A DNA stretch of 64,000 nt, from NCBI GenBank assembly GCA_030684395.1, contig JAUXTT010000026.1, positions 62,001-126,000 of the forward strand, read 5' to 3'. Of this stretch, positions 2,566 through 55,588 are shown piece after piece; position 1 is the stretch's first letter, and each line of letters starts with the position of its first letter. Below the pieces are notes generated by a model, which was given only the letters and a program-made list of their open reading frames with translations, made no database searches and was not told where the DNA came from. This DNA comes from Bacteroidota bacterium (GTDB lineage: Bacteria; Bacteroidota; Bacteroidia; B-17B0; Aurantibacillaceae). The position numbers and the translations under genes were made by a program.

Positions 2566-4437
2566 TCAATTTACCAACACCTTCACCGGATATTTAATTC
2601 CTTCCACATAAAAGTTCACAATATATTGTCCGGATCGTATTTTTTCCTCCGGAACAATATGTACGGTATTAGTAGCCATTGATTCGGAAGTGAATTGATT
2701 TTTGTAAACCACTTTACCCTCCATACTATACATTTCAATTAACACTTCATGTTCGTTCTCAATTCCGGAAAAATCCACCGAAAACTCGCCCATGTTTGGA
2801 TTTGGAAAAACAACAAAACGAATATTATTTTTCACTTCAAAGTCTACCGAAATTATAGGATGATATTCAAATGCTCCATTAAAATCTATTTGCTTGAGCC
2901 TATAATAAGACATTCCATCAGAAGGCGCATTATCTGTATACGAGTAATTCAACTGGTAGTTTGAGTTTCCATTAGTAGCTTTAGAGTCTTCCGTTCCAAT
3001 TTTTTCGAAACTTAAACCGTCAATACTTTTTTCAATTTCAAAACGGTCGCTGTTCTTTTCGGTAGCTGTTGACCAATTTAAAACCACACCATTGTTTTCA
3101 GGTGTTGCATAAAATTCCGTTAGCTCAACCGGCATAGGAGTTTGGCTGGCATTACTTGTGCCAAAAGAAAATCTGGAGCCATTATCAATATCAACTCCTG
3201 ACCACTTGTAAACAGTGCCTCCAACAAGTACAGCTCCTGAAACAGGAACCTCGTCTGTAAAAACTCCGTCGTTATCCGTGTCGATTATCAATTGCAGATC
3301 ACTCGCTGTAACACTTCCCAAGCCCGCTAAATCCAGGCTAACATCCACTGTTCCTACTTCACCAACTTCAGAAACTCTCCATACTCTTGTCATTCGTGAC
3401 TGAACACCTGCAGGAATATCTGTTATATCATTAGCTGCTACGGCGGCATTATCATGCCCAAAAATAAAATACTCACCATTGCCAAGACCTGAAGGATTAT
3501 TTATTTTCACAATACCTGTACCTTGCGCATCATTATGAATATTAGAAGCGTCAACTCTTCCAATTCCGGCTACATCATAATCAAAGTTGCCGTTTCCTGC
3601 ATTATCCATCGTATAAACATCATTTGCGGCCGCTAAACCAATATTATATTTTGCAGATAAATAGTTTTGAACTAATACTCTTTGAGCCGCATTAATACTT
3701 GTATTAAATGCGATTACTTCTGCAATATCACCTGCCCATGTTTCGGAGCCCTGTCTACCAATAGCAAATTCTGTCCATGATTTTAACGTTCCATCATAAG
3801 CAACCGTTCCTGACGCCGTCCCATTAACATTTTGATTGATTGCTGTTCCTGTATAATTACTTTCTATAATGTAGTTGGTAGAAGCAGCTGTAGTGGCAAC
3901 TAATGAAATATTACGTTGTGTACTGTTAGTTTGAGTTCCTCTTCCCCAAGGTCGATTAGCATTACTTACCCACATTCCAACTGATTTGTCTGCTCCGCCG
4001 GTTGACAAAAGTAAAGTTGCCGGAGAGCCTTGAAATATTCCCGGATTTGAGCTTGGCAAGGAAGAATAACTTACAACTGCGTAGAAGGTTGCGTTATTTC
4101 CACTTGTAATTGAGGTATTTGATATCCTGTCATCACTCCCATCAAACCTTATAACCGGGAAGCCATTTATTACTCCGGTTCTGAATGTTGGTCGTTGGCC
4201 CGCGGTTCCTTCACTAAAATTTTTTGTGTTTCCACTTTGATCATTCCACTGCCTCACGCTTTGTGTGTTGGTAGCTAAAGTTACCCCGGCGTCATTATAG
4301 GCACCGACATCCGCTTTCAGCCAGAAGACATTGGTAGCACTGGACCCCACACCCGCAGGTCCGGTTTGTGAAAAGGAAATTAAAGTTGAACTAATAAGGG
4401 TAAAGCTAAATAATCTTCTGATCATACCTGAAAACAT
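2566..4437 (-). CDS. T9SS type A sorting domain-containing protein with ConA/LamG-like domain
   Basis: Signal peptide; FWLKADVGA...WNDQSGN...FDGSDDR domain; C-terminal VVFPNPNMGEFSVDF...GQYIVNFY...VKVLVN sorting domain. Confidence 0.85.
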   Translation of the reverse strand: MFSGMIRRLFSFTLISSTLISFSQTGPAGVGSSATNVFWLKADVGAYNDAGVTLATNTQSVRQWNDQSGNTKNFSEGTAGQRPTFRTGVINGFPVIRFDGSDDRISNTSITSGNNATFYAVVSYSSLPSSNPGIFQGSPATLLLSTGGADKSVGMWVSNANRPWGRGTQTNSTQRNISLVATTAASTNYIIESNYTGTAINQNVNGTASGTVAYDGTLKSWTEFAIGRQGSETWAGDIAEVIAFNTSINAAQRVLVQNYLSAKYNIGLAAANDVYTMDNAGNGNFDYDVAGIGRVDASNIHNDAQGTGIVKINNPSGLGNGEYFIFGHDNAAVAANDITDIPAGVQSRMTRVWRVSEVGEVGTVDVSLDLAGLGSVTASDLQLIIDTDNDGVFTDEVPVSGAVLVGGTVYKWSGVDIDNGSRFSFGTSNASQTPMPVELTEFYATPENNGVVLNWSTATEKNSDRFEIEKSIDGLSFEKIGTEDSKATNGNSNYQLNYSYTDNAPSDGMSYYRLKQIDFNGAFEYHPIISVDFEVKNNIRFVVFPNPNMGEFSVDFSGIENEHEVLIEMYSMEGKVVYKNQFTSESMATNTVHIVPEEKIRSGQYIVNFYVEGIKYPVKVLVN

Positions 4438-4657: not shown

Positions 4658-5647
4658 ATGAAAACATTCGCCACCGCATTTGGTAAAACTTTTTTAGTAA
4701 TTGGTTTACCTGTAAGTATCATTTTCTCTGCCTGCGCAGGATCATCAAGTGAAGAAAGAAGTGCTAATAAAAGCACTTACGATTATGCGGAGGCGCCTCC
4801 AACTGACATTTCTGCGAATGCCAAACAAGATTCGGTTTTAACTTCCAATGTATTTGCTCCAATGACAGTGGGTAAAACAAACGACTCCAATCATGTATTC
4901 ATGCGCAATGCAGATATGCGTTTCAGTGTAAAAGATGTAAGACAGGCTACTTTAGATATAGAAAAATTGGTGCGCAAATACGATGGCTTTGTAACTTACA
5001 CAAGCCTTACCGGAAATAAATACCTGAACAATTCGGTTAGAGTTAGCAAAGACAGTATAATGGAGGTATACAAAATGAATGTTACCAACGAGATCACGCT
5101 TCGTGTTCCGAATGTTAATCTCGACAGCACGTTAATTGAGCTTAACGGAATTATTGAATTTATAGACAACAGAACTATACGTGCTGATGATGTTAAGCTT
5201 CAATTGCTAGCGACCAGTCTAAAAGCAAAACGCAATTTACAACACATTAATAAACTTGACAAAAAGATCGACGATCAGGGCAAAAAACTTCCACAAACTG
5301 TACATGCATTAAACGATCTGAATTACAGTAAAACAAATTATGATGAGCAGCAACTAAATTTAATGGATCTTACAGATAAAGTTTCTTACAGCACCGTTAA
5401 GATGTATGTGTACCAACCGGAAGTTATGGAGTACAAAAAAAGCATGCTTCCTGCTATAATTAAACCTTACTCTCCTTCTTTTGGCGATAGATTAAGCTCA
5501 GCACTAAATACAGGGCTAACCATTCTTCAGGCTATCCTGTTGTTCTTTGCAACCATCTGGCCTTTGCTGTTTTTGTTTGTGATCATTTGGTTTACAACAA
5601 AATGGATAATCCGAACAAAAATTCTTGCAAGGGTTTTTAAAATTTAA
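4658..5647 (+). CDS. DUF4349 domain-containing lipoprotein
   Basis: Lipobox (SACAGSS); MRFSVKDVRQATLDIEKLVRKYDGFVTYT...LRVPNVNLDSTL and C-terminal TM helix as in DUF4349. Confidence 0.75.
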   Translation: MKTFATAFGKTFLVIGLPVSIIFSACAGSSSEERSANKSTYDYAEAPPTDISANAKQDSVLTSNVFAPMTVGKTNDSNHVFMRNADMRFSVKDVRQATLDIEKLVRKYDGFVTYTSLTGNKYLNNSVRVSKDSIMEVYKMNVTNEITLRVPNVNLDSTLIELNGIIEFIDNRTIRADDVKLQLLATSLKAKRNLQHINKLDKKIDDQGKKLPQTVHALNDLNYSKTNYDEQQLNLMDLTDKVSYSTVKMYVYQPEVMEYKKSMLPAIIKPYSPSFGDRLSSALNTGLTILQAILLFFATIWPLLFLFVIIWFTTKWIIRTKILARVFKI

Positions 5648-6046: not shown

Positions 6047-6391
6047 ATGACTGTTTTTTAATGATCAACGACTATTCGTTTAAGAAACCACTCCTCTTTT
6101 CATTCCTATTTGTTTCATCTCAAATAAGAAATATTTAGGAAAATTTTCTAAGGTAAAATTACGTTTTGTAGAGACCAAAGCCAAATGTTTTAACAGCAAT
6201 GACAATTTCGTTGGCATATTCCCAATTTCCAAATAAGGATCCATGAAAAACAAGTGTATCATACGGTCAAATCTGATCCTATACGCTGATCGAAAGCCTA
6301 AACAAAATAATGATTAGAATCATACATGTTGTTATTAAACCAAATCCATGTCATAAAAATGAAAGTTTAAAAAGTATTACATTTGTGGCAG

Positions 6392-6760
6392 ATGAAATGG
6401 TTGTTTATCATATTAATCGGGACAAGTATAATCTTACAGTCATTCAGTAAGGCAATTATTCTTGTGAATTTTCAGCTTAACAAGGACTACATTGCCAAAA
6501 ATTTGTGCGTACAGAAAAAGGTGAAAGGCAATTGTTGTCAAGGCAGCTGCCATTTGGAAAAACAATTGAAAGAGGAAGATAAACAAGAACAATCACCCGT
6601 TAATAACCTTAAAAGCATCCGGGATTTTCAGGTCTTTTGTCAAAATTGTTCTTCCTTCAGCTTAAAGCTTGAACTTGTTTTTGAAAGGGAATTTGTTCCT
6701 TTTCAAGAGTCAAAAGCACAATACCCATCCTTTTCTATTTTTCATCCACCAAAGGTTTAA
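6392..6760 (+). CDS. Small membrane-anchored Cys-rich protein upstream of TonB receptor
   Basis: N-terminal hydrophobic helix, then NLCVQKKVKGNCCQGSCHLEKQLKE. ORF track starts at TTG 6383, but ATG 6392 is more likely because a TACATTTG -7 box overlaps the TTG. Confidence 0.6.
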   Translation: MKWLFIILIGTSIILQSFSKAIILVNFQLNKDYIAKNLCVQKKVKGNCCQGSCHLEKQLKEEDKQEQSPVNNLKSIRDFQVFCQNCSSFSLKLELVFEREFVPFQESKAQYPSFSIFHPPKV

Positions 6761-6915
6761 TTAAATAAATTGTTAGCGCGAATCAGTCTACATTGACTGG
6801 TTAGGTTATTCTCTGCAAACAAGTAGGGGCAAACTCAATTCATTCGTTAATTTAATGAACCTGAACATAAGGTTCATCTCTAAAAGCTATTTATTATTTA
6901 TTTAAATCAATTCTT

Positions 6916-9279
6916 ATGAAGAAAAAGTATTGGTTAATGGCACCTTTGCTGGTGTCCATTAATTTCACCTTTGCTCAAAACATTATTTCAGGAAAAGTGT
7001 TCGACAAGGTTACCAAAGAGCCGCTCGTTGGGGTAGCGCTTATAATTCCAAGCACCCAAACAGGATGCACAACCGATATTAATGGGTCTTTCACGTTGTT
7101 AAACGATCAGTCGGTTGATAGTATTGAGGTTCGTTATATTGGTTATGAAACAGAAAGATTTAAAGCGGATCAAAAGCCACTTAAAATTGCACTTTCACCA
7201 TCAAGCAACACTATGCAGGAGATTGTTATTACAGCCAGTAGAGACGCACAAACACGTTCCGATGTTCCGATGGCTATAAACAAACTTTCTGCAACAACAA
7301 TCAACGACGCAAAACCTACTTTACTAAGTGAGTTGATCAATAAGGTTTCCGGGGTTGCTATGTTGAATTTAAACAACGAACAACATGGAATGTCGATAAG
7401 GCAACCAATGGGCACAAGCAATTACTATTTGTATATGGAAGATGGCATTCCGATGCGCCCAATGGGAGTTTTTAATCACAATGCATTAATTGAAATGAAT
7501 GTTTTTGCGATCTCCAACATCGAAGTTATAAAAGGTCCTGCTTCGTCTTTATATGGTCCGGAAGCAGTTGGTGGAGCAATTAATTTTATAACGCAAAAAC
7601 CTACTGCTGTGCTAACCGCTAAAATTGGATTGCAAGGAGATAACTTCGGTTATAAGCGTGTTCAATACGGCGCAGGTGGAATGATCACAAAAAAATTAGG
7701 TTTTTATGTGGGAGGTTTTTATGGTCAACAACGTAATAGTTGGATAACTAATTCTGACTACGATAAAAACTCAGTGAATGTGCGTCTTGATTATGATCTT
7801 ACTAAAAAAACAAAGGTGATATTAGCCGGTTCATTCAACGACTACTATTCACAAACAGGAGGAAGTGTTGACAGTGTTGCGTTTTATTCAAGAATCTATG
7901 TAAGTACAACTGATTTTACCTACAGAAAGGTTAAGTCATTAAGAACACGTTTTACCCTAGAGCACAAGTGGAATGAAAATAACAATACAACAATGCATTT
8001 GTTTTGTCGCGACAATTCTATCGGGCAAAATCCGGCTTATTCAATTCGTTGGACTACCGGGAAAACAACAGCAAGCGGTCAGGTGAATATTAACAGTGTA
8101 ACAAGTAAGGGTTTTATTCTGCAACACGCAACCACTATAAAACCAATCAGAATCAAATTAATTGCAGGGCTTAGCCTTGATAATTCTCCAACAACCTATA
8201 ACGCTTATCAGATCGATCTTAATGCGCAATTACGTGCAGGCGGATTATCTGTTGAGAAATACACAATCAGTGCAGATCGTCCCGATATTAAACTGGCGGA
8301 TTACTCAGCGGTTTTGTTGAATTATGCAGCGTACGCACAAGCAGAAATAAAACCAATAAAAAGGCTTTGCATTATTTTAGGCGGACGTTATGATGTAATG
8401 TCATTTAATTATAAAAATTATTTGGATGTGAGCTCAGGGAAAAAATCTTTCGGGCAGTTCTCTCCTAAGATCGGTGCTACTTTTAAAACATCAACTAATT
8501 CCGGTGTCTATGCTAATTTTGCAAAAGGATTTTCACCTCCGGGGCTTACCTCTATTTTTACTAAAAAGCCCAATACAAACCCTGCGGAGTTTTATTACAA
8601 CTTAAGTTCACCGCAATTCACCAATTATGAAACCGGAGCATGGTTGAATTTATTTAAAAATAAGTTAGACTTAGATATTACATTTTATCAATTGCTAGGG
8701 AAAAATGAATTGCTAAGTATTCGCCAGCCTGATAACTCCACGGATTATCAAAGTGCAGGGAAAACCACTCATCAGGGCGTAGAATACGGGGCAACGTATC
8801 GTCCAAACAAAGAATGGATGATTCGTTTTAGTGGAACAAATGCTGTTCACCGATTTGATGAATTTGTTTTAAGTACAAAGGCAAGTGATGTAGTTAAAAA
8901 TGTAAATGGCAAAATAATGCCAAGTGCACCATCCTGGATCGCGAATAGCGAAGTTATTTATAAACCCAAATATGTGAAAGGATTAAAGGTTGGATTAGAA
9001 TGGCAGCACATGAGTGCCTGGTATCAGGATCAGGTAAATACAGTAAAGTACGACAACAAAGGAGTTTTTGGTGCAAAAGGAATCAGTGTTTTAAATGCAA
9101 GGATAGGTTACCAGTGGAAAGGGATCGAAGTGTTCTCAAACATAATGAATCTTACTAACGAGCTTTACGCTTTTAATGCAACGAGAGGGAATTTACCAAG
9201 CAGTCGCACCACTTATACGCCTGCTCCACCACGTACATTTGTTTTAGGATTACAATATAATTTTACCGGAAAAAAATAA
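6916..9279 (+). CDS. TonB-dependent receptor with carboxypeptidase-like plug-preceding domain
   Basis: ISGKVFDKVTKEPLVGVALIIPST N-domain; EIVITASRDAQTRSDVP plug; IEVIKGPASSLYGPEAVGGAINFIT; C-terminal beta-barrel ending PRTFVLGLQYNF. Confidence 0.93.
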   Translation: MKKKYWLMAPLLVSINFTFAQNIISGKVFDKVTKEPLVGVALIIPSTQTGCTTDINGSFTLLNDQSVDSIEVRYIGYETERFKADQKPLKIALSPSSNTMQEIVITASRDAQTRSDVPMAINKLSATTINDAKPTLLSELINKVSGVAMLNLNNEQHGMSIRQPMGTSNYYLYMEDGIPMRPMGVFNHNALIEMNVFAISNIEVIKGPASSLYGPEAVGGAINFITQKPTAVLTAKIGLQGDNFGYKRVQYGAGGMITKKLGFYVGGFYGQQRNSWITNSDYDKNSVNVRLDYDLTKKTKVILAGSFNDYYSQTGGSVDSVAFYSRIYVSTTDFTYRKVKSLRTRFTLEHKWNENNNTTMHLFCRDNSIGQNPAYSIRWTTGKTTASGQVNINSVTSKGFILQHATTIKPIRIKLIAGLSLDNSPTTYNAYQIDLNAQLRAGGLSVEKYTISADRPDIKLADYSAVLLNYAAYAQAEIKPIKRLCIILGGRYDVMSFNYKNYLDVSSGKKSFGQFSPKIGATFKTSTNSGVYANFAKGFSPPGLTSIFTKKPNTNPAEFYYNLSSPQFTNYETGAWLNLFKNKLDLDITFYQLLGKNELLSIRQPDNSTDYQSAGKTTHQGVEYGATYRPNKEWMIRFSGTNAVHRFDEFVLSTKASDVVKNVNGKIMPSAPSWIANSEVIYKPKYVKGLKVGLEWQHMSAWYQDQVNTVKYDNKGVFGAKGISVLNARIGYQWKGIEVFSNIMNLTNELYAFNATRGNLPSSRTTYTPAPPRTFVLGLQYNFTGKK

Positions 9280-10511
9280 TGAAAAACTACTTTGCAATTA
9301 CCGCATTTGTTTTGTCTTTGGTTTCTTGTTCGAACAAACAAGCCGAGCAAACTTCTTCAGAGGAAGAAAAAACAGTTTCAACAAACACCTCATCAACTAC
9401 TTCATGTCCTTATTTAACCCAGGATGAAAAGGGCAATGTAGTGATGAGCTGGGTAAAGGAGATCAACGATAGTATTGCTTTTGTATGTTATGCTTTGTCA
9501 CAGGATAAGGGAATAAGCTTTGGTGAACCTGTTGAGATCAAGGCTACTAAAGATGTTCATCCACATGGAGAAAACTTACCCAAACTACTTTTTAAACCAA
9601 GCGGTGAAATTATCGTGATATGGGGAGTAAACAACGCAAACCCCAAAAGCAAGTATTCGGGTTTAGTTTATTATTCTCAGTCTTTTGATGAAGGAAAAAC
9701 ATGGGCCAACCCGATCGCACTTGTAAAAGATACATCAGCATACGATCAACGTTATTTTGACATGGAACTTTTGCCAAACGGTGAAGCAATGGTTATTTGG
9801 CTTGACAATCGCGGTGAAAAAGAGAAGGAAGGATCTACATTATTCTGCGCGGTAACTAATGGAAAAACCGGCTTTTTAAATGAGAAAGCAATTGGTGAAA
9901 CATGCTGCCCATGCTGTCGAACTGATTTATTTGTAGACAGCAAGGGAACTATTCATGCTTCTTATCGGGATATTATAAATGATTCTATTCGTGATATGGT
10001 GCAACTGGTTTCTTCAGATAATGGAAGTACCTTTTCGCAACCGATCCGAATCAGTGCAGATAACTGGGTAATTAATGGCTGTCCTCATACCGGGCCAACC
10101 GTTACTGAAAACAATGCCGGTCTTCATTTCGCCTGGTATACAATGGGTGGCGGCGAAGGTGTTTTTTATTGTAAGTCGTCTGATTTTGGGAAAACATTTT
10201 CTAAAAGGGATATAGTAAGCAGTAATCCTTCAGCAAAACATCCTCAGATTGCAGCTCTTCCGAATGGAAATGTTGTAATTGTTTGGGATGAATCAGTAAA
10301 AAAAGGAGAGAAGGTTAACGCATGGATAGGCTTACAAGTTAGGAATTCTAAAGGAAAAATTATTTCCTCAAAATTTGTTTCTTCTGATGATGCTTTTTCT
10401 GAATTTGCAGTATTAAAAGTGATTGATGAAAATAATATCTTAGTTGTTTACAACCAACGAATAAACGGAAGGAAAAGTATTAGTCATAAAACGGTAGCAC
10501 TTAACAATTAA
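9279..10511 (+). CDS. BNR/sialidase-like beta-propeller lipoprotein with CCPCC motif
   Basis: Lipobox LVSCSNK; repeated SxDxGxTF/W blades (SQDKGISFGEP, SFDEGKTWANP, SSDNGSTFSQP, SSDFGKTFSKR); ETCCPCCRTDL. ATG overlaps the TonB receptor stop by 1 nt (TAATG). Confidence 0.75.
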   Translation: MKNYFAITAFVLSLVSCSNKQAEQTSSEEEKTVSTNTSSTTSCPYLTQDEKGNVVMSWVKEINDSIAFVCYALSQDKGISFGEPVEIKATKDVHPHGENLPKLLFKPSGEIIVIWGVNNANPKSKYSGLVYYSQSFDEGKTWANPIALVKDTSAYDQRYFDMELLPNGEAMVIWLDNRGEKEKEGSTLFCAVTNGKTGFLNEKAIGETCCPCCRTDLFVDSKGTIHASYRDIINDSIRDMVQLVSSDNGSTFSQPIRISADNWVINGCPHTGPTVTENNAGLHFAWYTMGGGEGVFYCKSSDFGKTFSKRDIVSSNPSAKHPQIAALPNGNVVIVWDESVKKGEKVNAWIGLQVRNSKGKIISSKFVSSDDAFSEFAVLKVIDENNILVVYNQRINGRKSISHKTVALNN

Positions 10512-10514
10512 AGC

Positions 10515-10556
10515 AAAAAGGGGCTGTTCTCTACTTTTGAGACAGCCTCTTTTTTA
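10515..10556. terminator. Rho-independent terminator between convergent genes
   Basis: AAAAAGGGGCTGTTCTC-N7-GAGACAGCCTCTTTTTT. Confidence 0.75.
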
Positions 10557-13473: not shown

Positions 13474-14361
13474 ATGTTTGAAGAGTTTAGAGAGGCCTTA
13501 CTAATAATGATTTCCACTCCTATCTATGTAATAGTGATTGGGGCTGAAATTCTTTTTAGTAGTTTTTACAACCACAACAATTATAGCAAGAAAGGAACGA
13601 TTGAAAACATCTACCTAATGTTCCTGAACATGGGGCTGGACATTTTGATGAGAGGTGTTTGTTTGTTGATCCTGAATTTCTTTTTTCAGTTTCATTTTGT
13701 TGAATTACAGAATCAATGGGCATACTGGATTGTTCTAATAATCGGGCAGGACTTTTTATTTTACCTCTTACATTATGTAGATCACTACGTACGGTTCTTT
13801 TGGGCGGTGCATGTTACGCATCACTCATCCGAAGAGTTTAATTTAACTGTGGGATTTCGATCTTCGGTTTTTCAACCTTTGTATCGTTTCATTTATTTTA
13901 TTCCATTATCTCTCTGTGGGTTTGCGGGCAAAGACATTATGTTTATTTATTCTGCAACACAGATCTACGGAATTTTGATCCATACCAAATACATTAACAA
14001 GTTGGGGCCTTTGGAGTGGATCTTTTCAACGCCTTCACATCACAGGGTTCATCACGCATCCAACATCCCTTATCTGGATAAGAATATGGGAATGTTACTT
14101 ATAATCTGGGATCGTATGTTTGGAACTTTTGCTGAAGAAAGAGCTGATGAACCCGTACGTTATGGTTTAACTGAAAACATCAAAAGCCGTCATCCGGCTC
14201 ATGTTGTTTTTCATGAATGGGTAGGGATTTCGAAAGACCTCAAAAAATCAAGTTCTTTCAAACACAAATTAAAATACCTGTTTGCACCTCCCGGATGGAG
14301 CCATGACGGTTCTAAAAAAACAGCCAAGCAGTTAAGAGAAGAGCATCACTCCAGGAAATAA
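13474..14361 (+). CDS. Sterol desaturase / fatty acid hydroxylase superfamily membrane protein
   Basis: HYVDH, HVTHHS, HHRVHH histidine motifs with multiple TM helices. Confidence 0.88.
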   Translation: MFEEFREALLIMISTPIYVIVIGAEILFSSFYNHNNYSKKGTIENIYLMFLNMGLDILMRGVCLLILNFFFQFHFVELQNQWAYWIVLIIGQDFLFYLLHYVDHYVRFFWAVHVTHHSSEEFNLTVGFRSSVFQPLYRFIYFIPLSLCGFAGKDIMFIYSATQIYGILIHTKYINKLGPLEWIFSTPSHHRVHHASNIPYLDKNMGMLLIIWDRMFGTFAEERADEPVRYGLTENIKSRHPAHVVFHEWVGISKDLKKSSSFKHKLKYLFAPPGWSHDGSKKTAKQLREEHHSRK

Positions 14362-31144: not shown

Positions 31145-32716
31145 TTAGTCAGTATTTACTGTATTACCATTAGTGATCAAAGTAGCTTTATCCGTTACTC
31201 CCTGCCCGGAAGGTGGTGCCATTGGAGTTTGCGAGTTCAGAGAGATGGTTTTTCCTGTAAGAGCAGGGATAGATACAAGTTTTGCAAGCAATGCATTTAC
31301 TGACGCAACACTTAATTTACAACCCGACGCATTAAAACTATTTCCAAAACTTGTTAATGCAGGGAAAGAAACGGTTGTCACTCCCGAAGTAATAATAGTT
31401 ATACTACTTGAACCTGTTGTTGTTAAAGCCGGAAAACTTAGAGTAGCAAGAGCAGGATTTGAAATCACGTTAATACTTCCTGAAGACGTTAGTGCTGACA
31501 AATCAACAGAGGTCAACAGCGTATTGTTGTTCATGTTGATGTTTCCTGAAGTGGTAAGTGAAGGAAAGCTTAAAGATGTTAAAGCAACATTGTTTTGGCT
31601 ATTGATACCTCCTGTTGTTATTAGCGCCGGAAAACTCATTGTTGAAATGGACGCACAATTACTTACGAATACTGAGCCTGCGTTTCCTAAAGAAGGAAAA
31701 GTTAGTGATGTTACATCAGAGTTGCTAGAAAATGAAAGAGAACCGCAGGATGCAAGAGCCGGAAAAGAAACAGTGTTCAGATCTGGATTTCCGCTAATAC
31801 TATATGTATCATTAATTGTAGACATTGCTCCAAATGAAATTGAGGTCAAAACACTGTTGTCTTCTATATGCAAATTAATAGAATTTGTCACAGAAGGCAT
31901 GCTAATACTTACCAGAGCAGTGTTTTCATCAATGGTTGTGAAGGTGTTACATTTTACTAAGGCAGGCAGGTTCAATGAAGTAAGTCCTACATTGCTCACA
32001 ACGAATTCACCGGTTGTGATTTTGGCAAGAGAAGATATGTCTAATGAAGTTAATGCCGGATTATTGTTAAAAATAACAGAACCATCACAACGGGTTAAAC
32101 CACTTAAGTTAAGAGTAGCAAGTGCACTATTATTGGACACCTCAATATAAATAGCTGTGGTGATCATACTAAGATCAACCGTAGTTAAATTTGTGGTTCC
32201 TACAATTTTGATCTCCTGCGTGTTCGGTCCCACTTCATTTGCGATAATAGTTGCTGCCTGTGCATTGGTAACATCATCACTTAATACCAGAGTTTGTTTT
32301 CCACCGTTATTTACAACATTTCCCGCACACAAAGCATAAGGAACCGATAACATTTGTGAGGTTCCCATTAACTGGTAACTTGTTCCACCGGTAATATCCA
32401 TGCTTACTTTTAAAAATTTACTTCCGCCAACAGCCCAGTTAATTGCATTGAATGTTCCTGTAGTTGGAGTTCCTGCGCCAATCACCAATGTAAATAACCC
32501 GTTGGCGTCAGTAGTTAGTGCATGTGTTTCGGTATAAATTGTTGTACCGCTTGGCGAACCTTCTAATACCGATAACTCTATACCTATTGATTGGTTTGAT
32601 AGCTCAACGCCTGCTGCGTTACGGGCAACTCCCTGATAATTGATTCCTTGAGGAGCCTGAGCGTTTGTGATGAAAGTTAAGCAAGTCGCTAAAATTAAAG
32701 TGTAAACGTGTTTCAT
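31145..32716 (-). CDS. Surface protein: N-terminal Bacteroidota 'NYQGVARNA...LSVPYAL' module plus LRR-like beta repeats
   Basis: APQGINYQGVARNAAGVELSNQSIGIELSVLEGSPSGTTIYTETHALTTDANGLFTLVIG..MLSVPYALCAGN, then about ten 21-23 residue repeats of type LTSLSFPSLTTSGNINMNNNT. Confidence 0.75.
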   Translation of the reverse strand: MKHVYTLILATCLTFITNAQAPQGINYQGVARNAAGVELSNQSIGIELSVLEGSPSGTTIYTETHALTTDANGLFTLVIGAGTPTTGTFNAINWAVGGSKFLKVSMDITGGTSYQLMGTSQMLSVPYALCAGNVVNNGGKQTLVLSDDVTNAQAATIIANEVGPNTQEIKIVGTTNLTTVDLSMITTAIYIEVSNNSALATLNLSGLTRCDGSVIFNNNPALTSLDISSLAKITTGEFVVSNVGLTSLNLPALVKCNTFTTIDENTALVSISMPSVTNSINLHIEDNSVLTSISFGAMSTINDTYSISGNPDLNTVSFPALASCGSLSFSSNSDVTSLTFPSLGNAGSVFVSNCASISTMSFPALITTGGINSQNNVALTSLSFPSLTTSGNINMNNNTLLTSVDLSALTSSGSINVISNPALATLSFPALTTTGSSSITIITSGVTTVSFPALTSFGNSFNASGCKLSVASVNALLAKLVSIPALTGKTISLNSQTPMAPPSGQGVTDKATLITNGNTVNTD

Positions 32717-54814: not shown

Positions 54815-55588
54815 TTATCCTTTATACTTCATCTTACCCCTAACTAAATCTACAAAGCCGTGAAATACCAACTTAAAAGGATTATAGCTTACAAAACCAT
54901 CTGTTGTTCCATAAATGGGTTTTTCAGTCTCGGGTTCATAGGTCTTAAAAATTCTATCCCATATCATTAAAACACCTCCAAAATTTTTGTCGAGATATAT
55001 TTTATTGGAGCCGTGATGCACACGATGTGCTGATGGTGTGTCAATTATTCCTTCCAGTTTGCCTAACTTATTTATTACTTCGGTATGCAATAAAAACTGG
55101 TACAAAAGATTAAAGGCATAGCTTAAAACAATTACTTGCGGGTCTATTCCTAAAATAGCCAAAGGCATAAAGAAGAAAGGTCCGATAATAGCGCTGAACC
55201 AATTTAAACGATAAGATGTGGTTAAGTTCATGTGTTGCCCGGAATGGTGAATTACATGAAATGCCCAAAGTGGTTTCCAAACATGTGAAGCCCTGTGAAA
55301 CCAGTAATAAATAAAATCAACCAACACAAATGCTAATACATAAACCCAGGGCTTATCAGGGAAATCGATAGTGGCAAACTTGTGAGCAAACCCCATTACG
55401 CTTACCTGATAGCCCGCAAAAAGAAATTTGGTCAACACAAACCCGGCTATGATACTCAAATTAGCTAGCGATTCTTTAAGCGAATAAACCTTTTTGTTTT
55501 CTACAATACTCCAGGTGATTTCTGCAGCTATAAGAATAACTATTATGGTTAATGCCCAGGGTTTATATTGACCAAACACAAATTCCAT
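54815..55588 (-). CDS. Sterol desaturase / fatty acid hydroxylase family protein
   Basis: HRASHV, HVIHHS, HRVHHGSN histidine motifs. Confidence 0.9.
   Translation of the reverse strand: MEFVFGQYKPWALTIIVILIAAEITWSIVENKKVYSLKESLANLSIIAGFVLTKFLFAGYQVSVMGFAHKFATIDFPDKPWVYVLAFVLVDFIYYWFHRASHVWKPLWAFHVIHHSGQHMNLTTSYRLNWFSAIIGPFFFMPLAILGIDPQVIVLSYAFNLLYQFLLHTEVINKLGKLEGIIDTPSAHRVHHGSNKIYLDKNFGGVLMIWDRIFKTYEPETEKPIYGTTDGFVSYNPFKLVFHGFVDLVRGKMKYKG

Follow-up and report, generated by a model that had tools for sequence, protein, structure and literature searches.

This study analyzed a 64,000-nucleotide stretch of a Bacteroidota bacterium genome (contig JAUXTT010000026.1, positions 62,001 to 126,000; hereafter the window), in which three consecutive plus-strand genes (6392-6760, 6916-9279, and 9279-10511), followed by a terminator, encode a small Cys-containing protein, a TonB-dependent receptor, and a seven-bladed beta-propeller lipoprotein. 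We propose, with a probability of about 0.62, that these genes constitute a copper import and handling operon in which the propeller performs the job of a PepSY_TM protein. The new observation is that either a propeller gene or a PepSY_TM gene lies directly behind receptors of the same subfamily. Gene order, gene linkage, the conservation of Cys, His, and Met residues, copper gene neighborhoods, and partner switching were all observed computationally. The parts of the reading differ in strength: judged from neighborhoods and conservation, copper is very probably the metal concerned; given copper, import is considerably more probable than defense; and thiol capture by the propeller has somewhat less than an even chance. 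The original prediction, a metal-acquisition locus, had described a small anchored protein, a TonB receptor, a lipoprotein with BNR-like Asp boxes, and a TAATG overlap joining the receptor TAA to the lipoprotein ATG, and the open reading frame (ORF) calls and Pfam matches returned each of these as described. The coding features are as follows.

6392-6760, plus strand: small protein gene, ATG at 6392, stop at 6760, 122 amino acids (aa), by ORF call
6506-6550, plus strand: codons across the three invariant Cys of the small protein, from the family alignment
6916-9279, plus strand: TonB-dependent receptor gene, 787 aa, with CarbopepD_reg, plug, and barrel domains (Pfam)
7375-7392, plus strand: receptor plug segment NEQHGM, His157 in 72/72 sequences and Met159 in 67/72
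7471-7482, plus strand: receptor plug segment FNHN, His188 in 72/72, aligned with the second CirA plug stretch
9279-10511, plus strand: seven-bladed beta-propeller lipoprotein gene, 410 aa, four Asp boxes (ORF, BNR_2, AlphaFold2, DSSP, and Foldseek)
9903-9917, plus strand: CCPCC codons, running into the inner strand of blade 4 (strand 216-219)
10080-10097, plus strand: CPHTGP codons (Cys268, Pro269, and Gly272 invariant), running into the inner strand of blade 5 (274-278)

Among the fetched loci, 18 carried the receptor with no neighboring propeller, and in all of them the next same-strand gene encoded a PepSY_TM protein (eight were Pfam-tested); at L237, approximately 2 kb of small opposite-strand genes separated the two. 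L185 constituted a nineteenth receptor-PepSY_TM locus. A propeller and a PepSY_TM protein were never found together after one receptor in the loci read. Cassette-type PepSY_TM was absent from seven sampled propeller-cassette genomes and from G431, which has a close propeller, the sole match in that search being a weak and unrelated one in G190; the genome containing the window yielded no PepSY_TM match. Six changes of partner label were needed on the 55-row receptor tree, at least four of them forced by well-supported branches, and the bootstrap trees needed six as well. Because placement was either-or, the tree required six switches, and the propeller genomes searched held no cassette-type PepSY_TM, the propeller and the PepSY_TM protein appear to be alternative means of performing a single step behind the same receptor subfamily. 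These loci offer a natural experiment on the fate of copper after import, in which the same receptor occurs with a heme-type membrane reductase in some loci and with a cysteine propeller in others.

The closest parallel is CrtA, a proven copper receptor of Bordetella pertussis, which is followed in more than 75% of loci by a PepSY_TM gene; the Bordetella PepSY_TM protein, CrpH, has been proposed as a reductase that readies copper for heme-copper oxidases (PMC12914433, PMC13038864). The window operon resembles CrtA-CrpH in that a partner gene lies directly downstream of a TonB receptor and in the link to copper and heme-copper oxidases, and sister loci of the window receptor hold PepSY_TM in exactly that slot, giving the same receptor-then-PepSY_TM order. 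The window departs from this order, however, having a soluble propeller lipoprotein in place of PepSY_TM and a small Cys protein upstream. CrtA is also set apart by its description as lacking conserved Cys and Met and having two conserved His (PMC12914433), whereas the window subfamily conserves Met149, Met159, and Met668 in addition to His157, His188, His619, and His645. We infer that the propeller replaces the PepSY_TM protein for the capture or reduction of imported copper.

A transition-metal substrate, with copper as the example, had been suggested from Cys clusters, and independent gene neighborhoods pointed to copper specifically. On Pseudosulfitobacter and Phaeobacter plasmids, the propeller gene was accompanied by genes for TolC, a copper oxidase, a copper-binding protein, azurin, and cytochrome c, and the Pseudosulfitobacter plasmid additionally encoded CusA, CusB, FixH, and a P-type ATPase. 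Among further plasmid-borne relatives, a multicopper oxidase gene adjoined the propeller gene in Tritonibacter and Salipiger; Runella combined a multicopper oxidase, the propeller, a resistance-nodulation-division (RND) pump, and TolC; the Adhaeribacter neighbors were copper ATPases; and in Methylomagnum, CopC adjoined the propeller with amoAB nearby. In Sulfitobacter, a multicopper oxidase gene lay approximately 5 kb away, and Spirosoma showed only a distant oxidase. Metal islands are enriched on plasmids, and the plasmid-borne neighborhoods therefore represent a biased sample. On Bacteroidota chromosomes, the propeller neighbors included CopC (L102), CusB (L114), and SCO1 (L093 and L043). 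Small-family genes, whose neighbors were Pfam-tested in part, adjoined MbnP and MbnH/CCP_MauG genes at L181, L187, L188, L190, and L239, with SCO1 and YHS also beside them at L188 and L190. They further occurred inside nos accessory clusters (NosL/NosD) at L184 and L185, the latter also containing the same receptor subfamily and PepSY_TM, and this placement suggests a role in copper supply for NosZ. In the genome containing the window, three genes belong to the COX1 family and two encode SCO1. Because copper genes recurred around the propeller, the small family, and the receptor, copper is favored as the metal.

These neighborhoods also bear on copper defense, in which the propeller, possibly with the small protein, would scavenge excess periplasmic Cu(I) while the receptor exported, sensed, or recovered chelated copper. 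Distant propeller relatives share copper-resistance islands with multicopper oxidases, CusAB, and P-type ATPases, and conjugative plasmids carry several of them; this location does not support the choice of acquisition over the handling of excess copper in the original prediction. However, the partner of the propeller in the cassette is a TonB receptor, an importer; the PepSY_TM, MbnP/MbnH, and nos genes at the sister receptor loci fit a supply role; and the window operon includes no efflux gene. Defense consequently appears unlikely.

The MbnP/MbnH (CorA/CorB) pairs and MbnT of methanobactin loci (PMC3621798) provide a second comparison. MbnP/MbnH pairs adjoin the same small Cys protein and, at L239 and L241, the same receptor subfamily. 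Nevertheless, no methanobactin biosynthesis gene was noticed, and PF20243 (MbnP) was not among the Pfam matches of the window proteins, indicating that the propeller is not MbnP. A protein of approximately 300-320 aa whose N terminus bears a D-x-C-x-C-[AS] motif (CDACGCAAGNG or CDVCGCSGTG) recurred beside MbnP/MbnH in several Bacteroidota, at the following positions.

L181, 4692-5588: D-x-C-x-C-[AS] protein
L188, 2207-3163: D-x-C-x-C-[AS] protein
L190, 9042-9986: D-x-C-x-C-[AS] protein
L239, 5220-6179: D-x-C-x-C-[AS] protein
L241, 5415-6380: D-x-C-x-C-[AS] protein

At L239, two Rfam Flavo-1 small RNAs (3766-3844, minus strand; 5120-5203, plus strand) lay on either side of the MbnH gene, next to the copper receptor locus. 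At L067 (8330-10945) and L081 (8215-10845), where the small Cys gene was missing, the gene directly after that of the propeller encoded a TonB receptor bearing an HMA-like domain (GNCEMC) at its N terminus; the HMA domain of the L081 receptor scored below the Pfam cut-off, and these proteins may represent a second copper-like receptor of the same operon.

We further analyzed the lipoprotein, a single-copy protein in its genome, which has an LVSC lipobox, four S-x-D-x-G-x-x-[FWY] Asp boxes, and the sequence ETCCPCCRTDL. BNR_2 (PF13088) matched it at 43.8 bits (curated cut-off 31.4; E 2.6e-11), in agreement with the earlier statement that the receptor partner is not SusD-like. The AlphaFold2 model had a mean predicted local distance difference test (pLDDT) score of 89.6 and a predicted template modeling (pTM) score of 0.88, and seven blades were read from the DSSP strands. 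The propeller alignment comprised 106 sequences from Bacteroidota, Ignavibacteria, Alphaproteobacteria, and Gammaproteobacteria, the distant ones (Alphaproteobacteria and a methanotroph) being approximately 25% identical. The results revealed that Cys210, Cys212, Cys213, and Cys268 were invariant (106/106), as were Arg230, Trp263, Pro269, and Gly272; Arg238 was present in 105/106, and Cys209 varied. ETCCPCCRTDL had been correctly noted, but CCPCC as the functional unit was rejected on the variation of Cys209: the conserved unit is C-x-C-C (Cys210, Cys212, and Cys213) together with a distant Cys-Pro (Cys268, in CPHTGP). The window protein carries the resulting family signature, C-x-C-C ... C-P-x-x-G with Arg230, Arg238, and Trp263. 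With three invariant Cys in the small protein as well, the conservation of the cysteines among homologs was borne out in both families.

In beta-propellers, the connections into the inner strands encircle the central channel on a single face. Because Cys210-Cys213 and Cys268 enter the innermost strands of the adjacent blades 4 and 5, their thiols are expected to be close together, and on the basis of strand order and topology the four should be neighbors at one face. Residues conserved in the cassette group, namely His96/Glu98, Arg158, and His321/Gln323, are located before or at the start of inner strands on that face. Acidic residues following the lipid Cys serve as a surface-export signal, and two or more stood directly after it in only 11 of 73 members; the presumed surface location of the lipoprotein was thus not supported. 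Of the 396 Bacteroidota genomes sampled, 136 gave a propeller match at E ≤ 0.001, a count in which not all matches necessarily belong to the same family. No description of the propeller or small-protein families was found in the open-access literature searched. In three Dyadobacter loci (L073, L075, and L078), an invariant-Cys propeller adjoined a conserved protein of approximately 214 aa and a lipoprotein-like protein of approximately 550 aa in place of the receptor, a further kind of partner arrangement.

The automatic annotation of propeller relatives as "sialidase family protein" would make the operon a glycan or sialic acid scavenging pair, with the propeller as a sialidase or glycan binder. 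The sialidase-type Asp-box fold, shared with GH33 sialidases and PLL-type lectins, agrees with this, as do the Foldseek matches, which were headed by sialidases and included PLL/PHL lectins at template modeling (TM) scores of about 0.5-0.6; a TonB receptor with a CarbopepD domain beside a lipoprotein gene is also the SusC/SusD arrangement. However, identity to the sialidases and lectins was only 10-15%, the window protein has no RIP motif and has invariant Cys instead, TM was near 0.5 to six-bladed sialidases as against seven predicted blades, and the loci read showed copper neighborhoods and no SusD or carbohydrate-active enzyme neighbors. A true GH33 sialidase was rejected because the RIP motif was missing, seven blades were predicted, and Cys was conserved instead, and a SusCD-like pair was rejected because the SusC model (TIGR04056) scored 117.9 bits against a cut-off of 368.25 and the neighbor is a BNR_2 propeller, not SusD. 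A glycan function is accordingly very improbable.

A TlpA-like thioredoxin gene lay near the propeller gene, mostly directly upstream, at L087, L088, L102, L106, L112, and L126, which span several genera, and C-x-C-C resembles redox motifs. These findings would fit a redox system in which the four Cys exchange thiols and disulfides with TlpA and no metal is involved. Such a system nevertheless leaves the multicopper oxidase, CusAB, CopC, and SCO1 neighbors and the coupling to a TonB receptor unexplained, and TlpA itself acts on copper chaperones, reducing ScoI and CoxB (PMC6696091). We regard this metal-free alternative as having a low probability.

The receptor matched the Pfam plug (8.4e-15), barrel (3.3e-32), and CarbopepD_reg_2 (2.8e-16) domains and has no close paralog in its genome. 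Its subfamily occurred in 34 of 396 Bacteroidota genomes, with one copy each (E ≤ 1e-120). His157, His188, His619, and His645 were kept in nearly all sequences and Met149, Met159, and Met668 in most. The His157 and His188 segments correspond in alignment to CirA plug stretches near and after the IRG motif, the first of them (NEQHGM) immediately ahead of it. NEQHGM was retained in propeller-linked and PepSY-linked receptors alike, and we infer that the His and Met residues of the plug contact the ligand. OprC/NosA receptors are similarly linked to copper and share an HxM motif (His157 and Met159 in the window receptor). The window motif, however, lies in the plug, the subfamily alignments contained no conserved Cys, the CxxxM-HxM site of OprC/NosA was not found, and no OprC/NosA-type model was among the 25 best NCBIfam matches; an OprC-type receptor was rejected because of the missing Cys.

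Another cargo (an iron siderophore, heme, or vitamin B12) or pyrroloquinoline quinone is the remaining alternative, the nearby copper genes being coincidental or shared redox partners. Siderophore, hemin, and B12 receptor models all matched the receptor below their cut-offs, PqqU/YncD and then CirA were the closest solved structures by profile match, and ferri-siderophore reductases, FoxB among them, are known among PepSY_TM proteins (PMC13038864). However, a search of the window and of ten relatives found no cobalamin riboswitch, the PqqU model scored 78.6 against a cut-off of 1200, and copper genes turned up repeatedly, in distinct lineages, near three different components. B12 uptake in particular was rejected on the lack of a riboswitch and a B12 receptor model score (TIGR01779) of 57.9 bits against 599.7, and a different cargo in general is improbable.

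Several of these observations, together with others, count against a copper import operon. The direct window neighbors, purD and a DUF4349 lipoprotein gene, are not copper genes. The four propeller Cys could pair as two structural disulfides, and the resistance-island relatives indicate that a detoxification role is possible for the propeller. Iron siderophore systems also use PepSY_TM proteins, the solved-receptor profile matches favor PqqU/YncD and do not imply an OprC-type receptor, and parts of the receptor tree have long branches.

The small protein comprises an N-terminal hydrophobic helix, the sequence LCVQKKVKGNCCQGSCHLEKQLK, a C-x9-C-x3-C motif, and a C-terminal FHPP, which is shared by most family members. 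In the family alignment, Cys38, Cys48, and Cys52 were invariant (numbering from the second residue). The protein is single copy in its genome and had no Pfam match above the cut-off and no NCBIfam match; a PHD_Oberon match (0.0014, below the cut-off) was taken as chance. Its structural model was poor (pLDDT 69.6), and the helix at residues 2-28 was read from that low-confidence model.

Under the proposed copper import reading, copper binding, reduction or hand-off, import direction, periplasmic orientation, cargo chemistry, and every other chemical step are conditional. The receptor would take a copper complex, probably copper on a small chelate, across the outer membrane through its invariant plug His and Met residues. 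The propeller, held at the outer membrane, would then take Cu(I) off the complex with a four-thiolate site (Cys210, Cys212, Cys213, and Cys268) at the propeller mouth, a periplasmic TlpA-type thioredoxin would keep these thiols reduced, and the small membrane-anchored protein may act as a metallochaperone or sensor in the same pathway. The propeller would thereby perform the step carried out by PepSY_TM in the sister loci and in Bordetella CrtA-CrpH, and the copper would be handed on to SCO1 and heme-copper oxidases. More tentatively, the CxCC propellers may form an undescribed class of periplasmic copper-thiolate proteins that strip and reduce imported copper, a soluble, heme-free stand-in for PepSY_TM that was swapped with it on several occasions while the TonB receptor stayed the same, with relatives annotated as sialidases forming a general copper module in Bacteroidota and Proteobacteria. 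This would re-annotate "sialidase family protein" entries, including those on Roseobacter plasmids, as likely copper-thiolate proteins, and it provides a concrete three-protein candidate that is present in culturable Chitinophaga species.

The co-occurrence of the three families proved to be recurrent. Among relatives, the small-receptor-propeller order was found in Chitinophaga, Pontibacter, Rufibacter, Parafilimonas, Flavipsychrobacter, Flavobacteriales, and an Ignavibacteria UBA6667 metagenome-assembled genome (MAG) (GTDB). For the 27 strongest receptor matches in the 396 genomes, coordinates placed a small-family gene just upstream in 27/27, with one intervening gene in G313 and apparently also in G088; in seven weaker receptor genomes of the 34, no small-family gene was listed beside the receptor. 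A re-scan of upstream DNA recovered the small gene at eight loci first scored without it because of ORF picking or a contig end and found it absent at L067, L081, L101, L104, and L129 (L110 and L111 lay outside the re-scan). The core of the cassette is the small gene plus the receptor. No strong propeller match was found in same-genus or same-family members among the sampled relatives, whereas L032, labeled a Chitinophaga pinensis MAG, shared 83% (receptor) and 72% (propeller) identity with the window proteins. Because the distribution is patchy, with absence in kin and close homologs elsewhere in Bacteroidota, it suggests that the cassette was gained by horizontal transfer in the source lineage. 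The GC content was not anomalous.

The operon is bounded by two candidate regulatory features.

6378-6385, plus strand: promoter-like -7 element of the Bacteroidetes type, TACATTTG (TAnnTTTG), 6 nucleotides 5' of the small-gene ATG, on weak evidence
10515-10554, plus strand: terminator hairpin with U tract, -21.7 kcal/mol, z -5.7, 0/200 shuffles as stable

The L031 and L032 relatives carry TAGATTTG and TAGATTTA, respectively, at the aligned promoter position, and the element is thus partly conserved. Because only 6 nucleotides separate the -7 element from the ATG, the leader of the small gene would be very short or absent. A sigma-70 promoter scan scored no better than shuffled sequence. The hairpin closes the operon and may also serve the convergent purD gene. 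The flanking genes, encoding a DUF4349 lipoprotein, a small minus-strand lipoprotein, and PurD on the opposite strand, are unrelated to the cassette. Elsewhere in the window, a 325-aa open frame (31173-32150) lies antisense to the gene for a leucine-rich-repeat-like secreted protein (31145-32716) and is probably a by-product of repeat codons, and two sterol-desaturase-like membrane proteins with HxxHH motifs, identified by eye, are encoded at 13474-14361 and 54815-55588.

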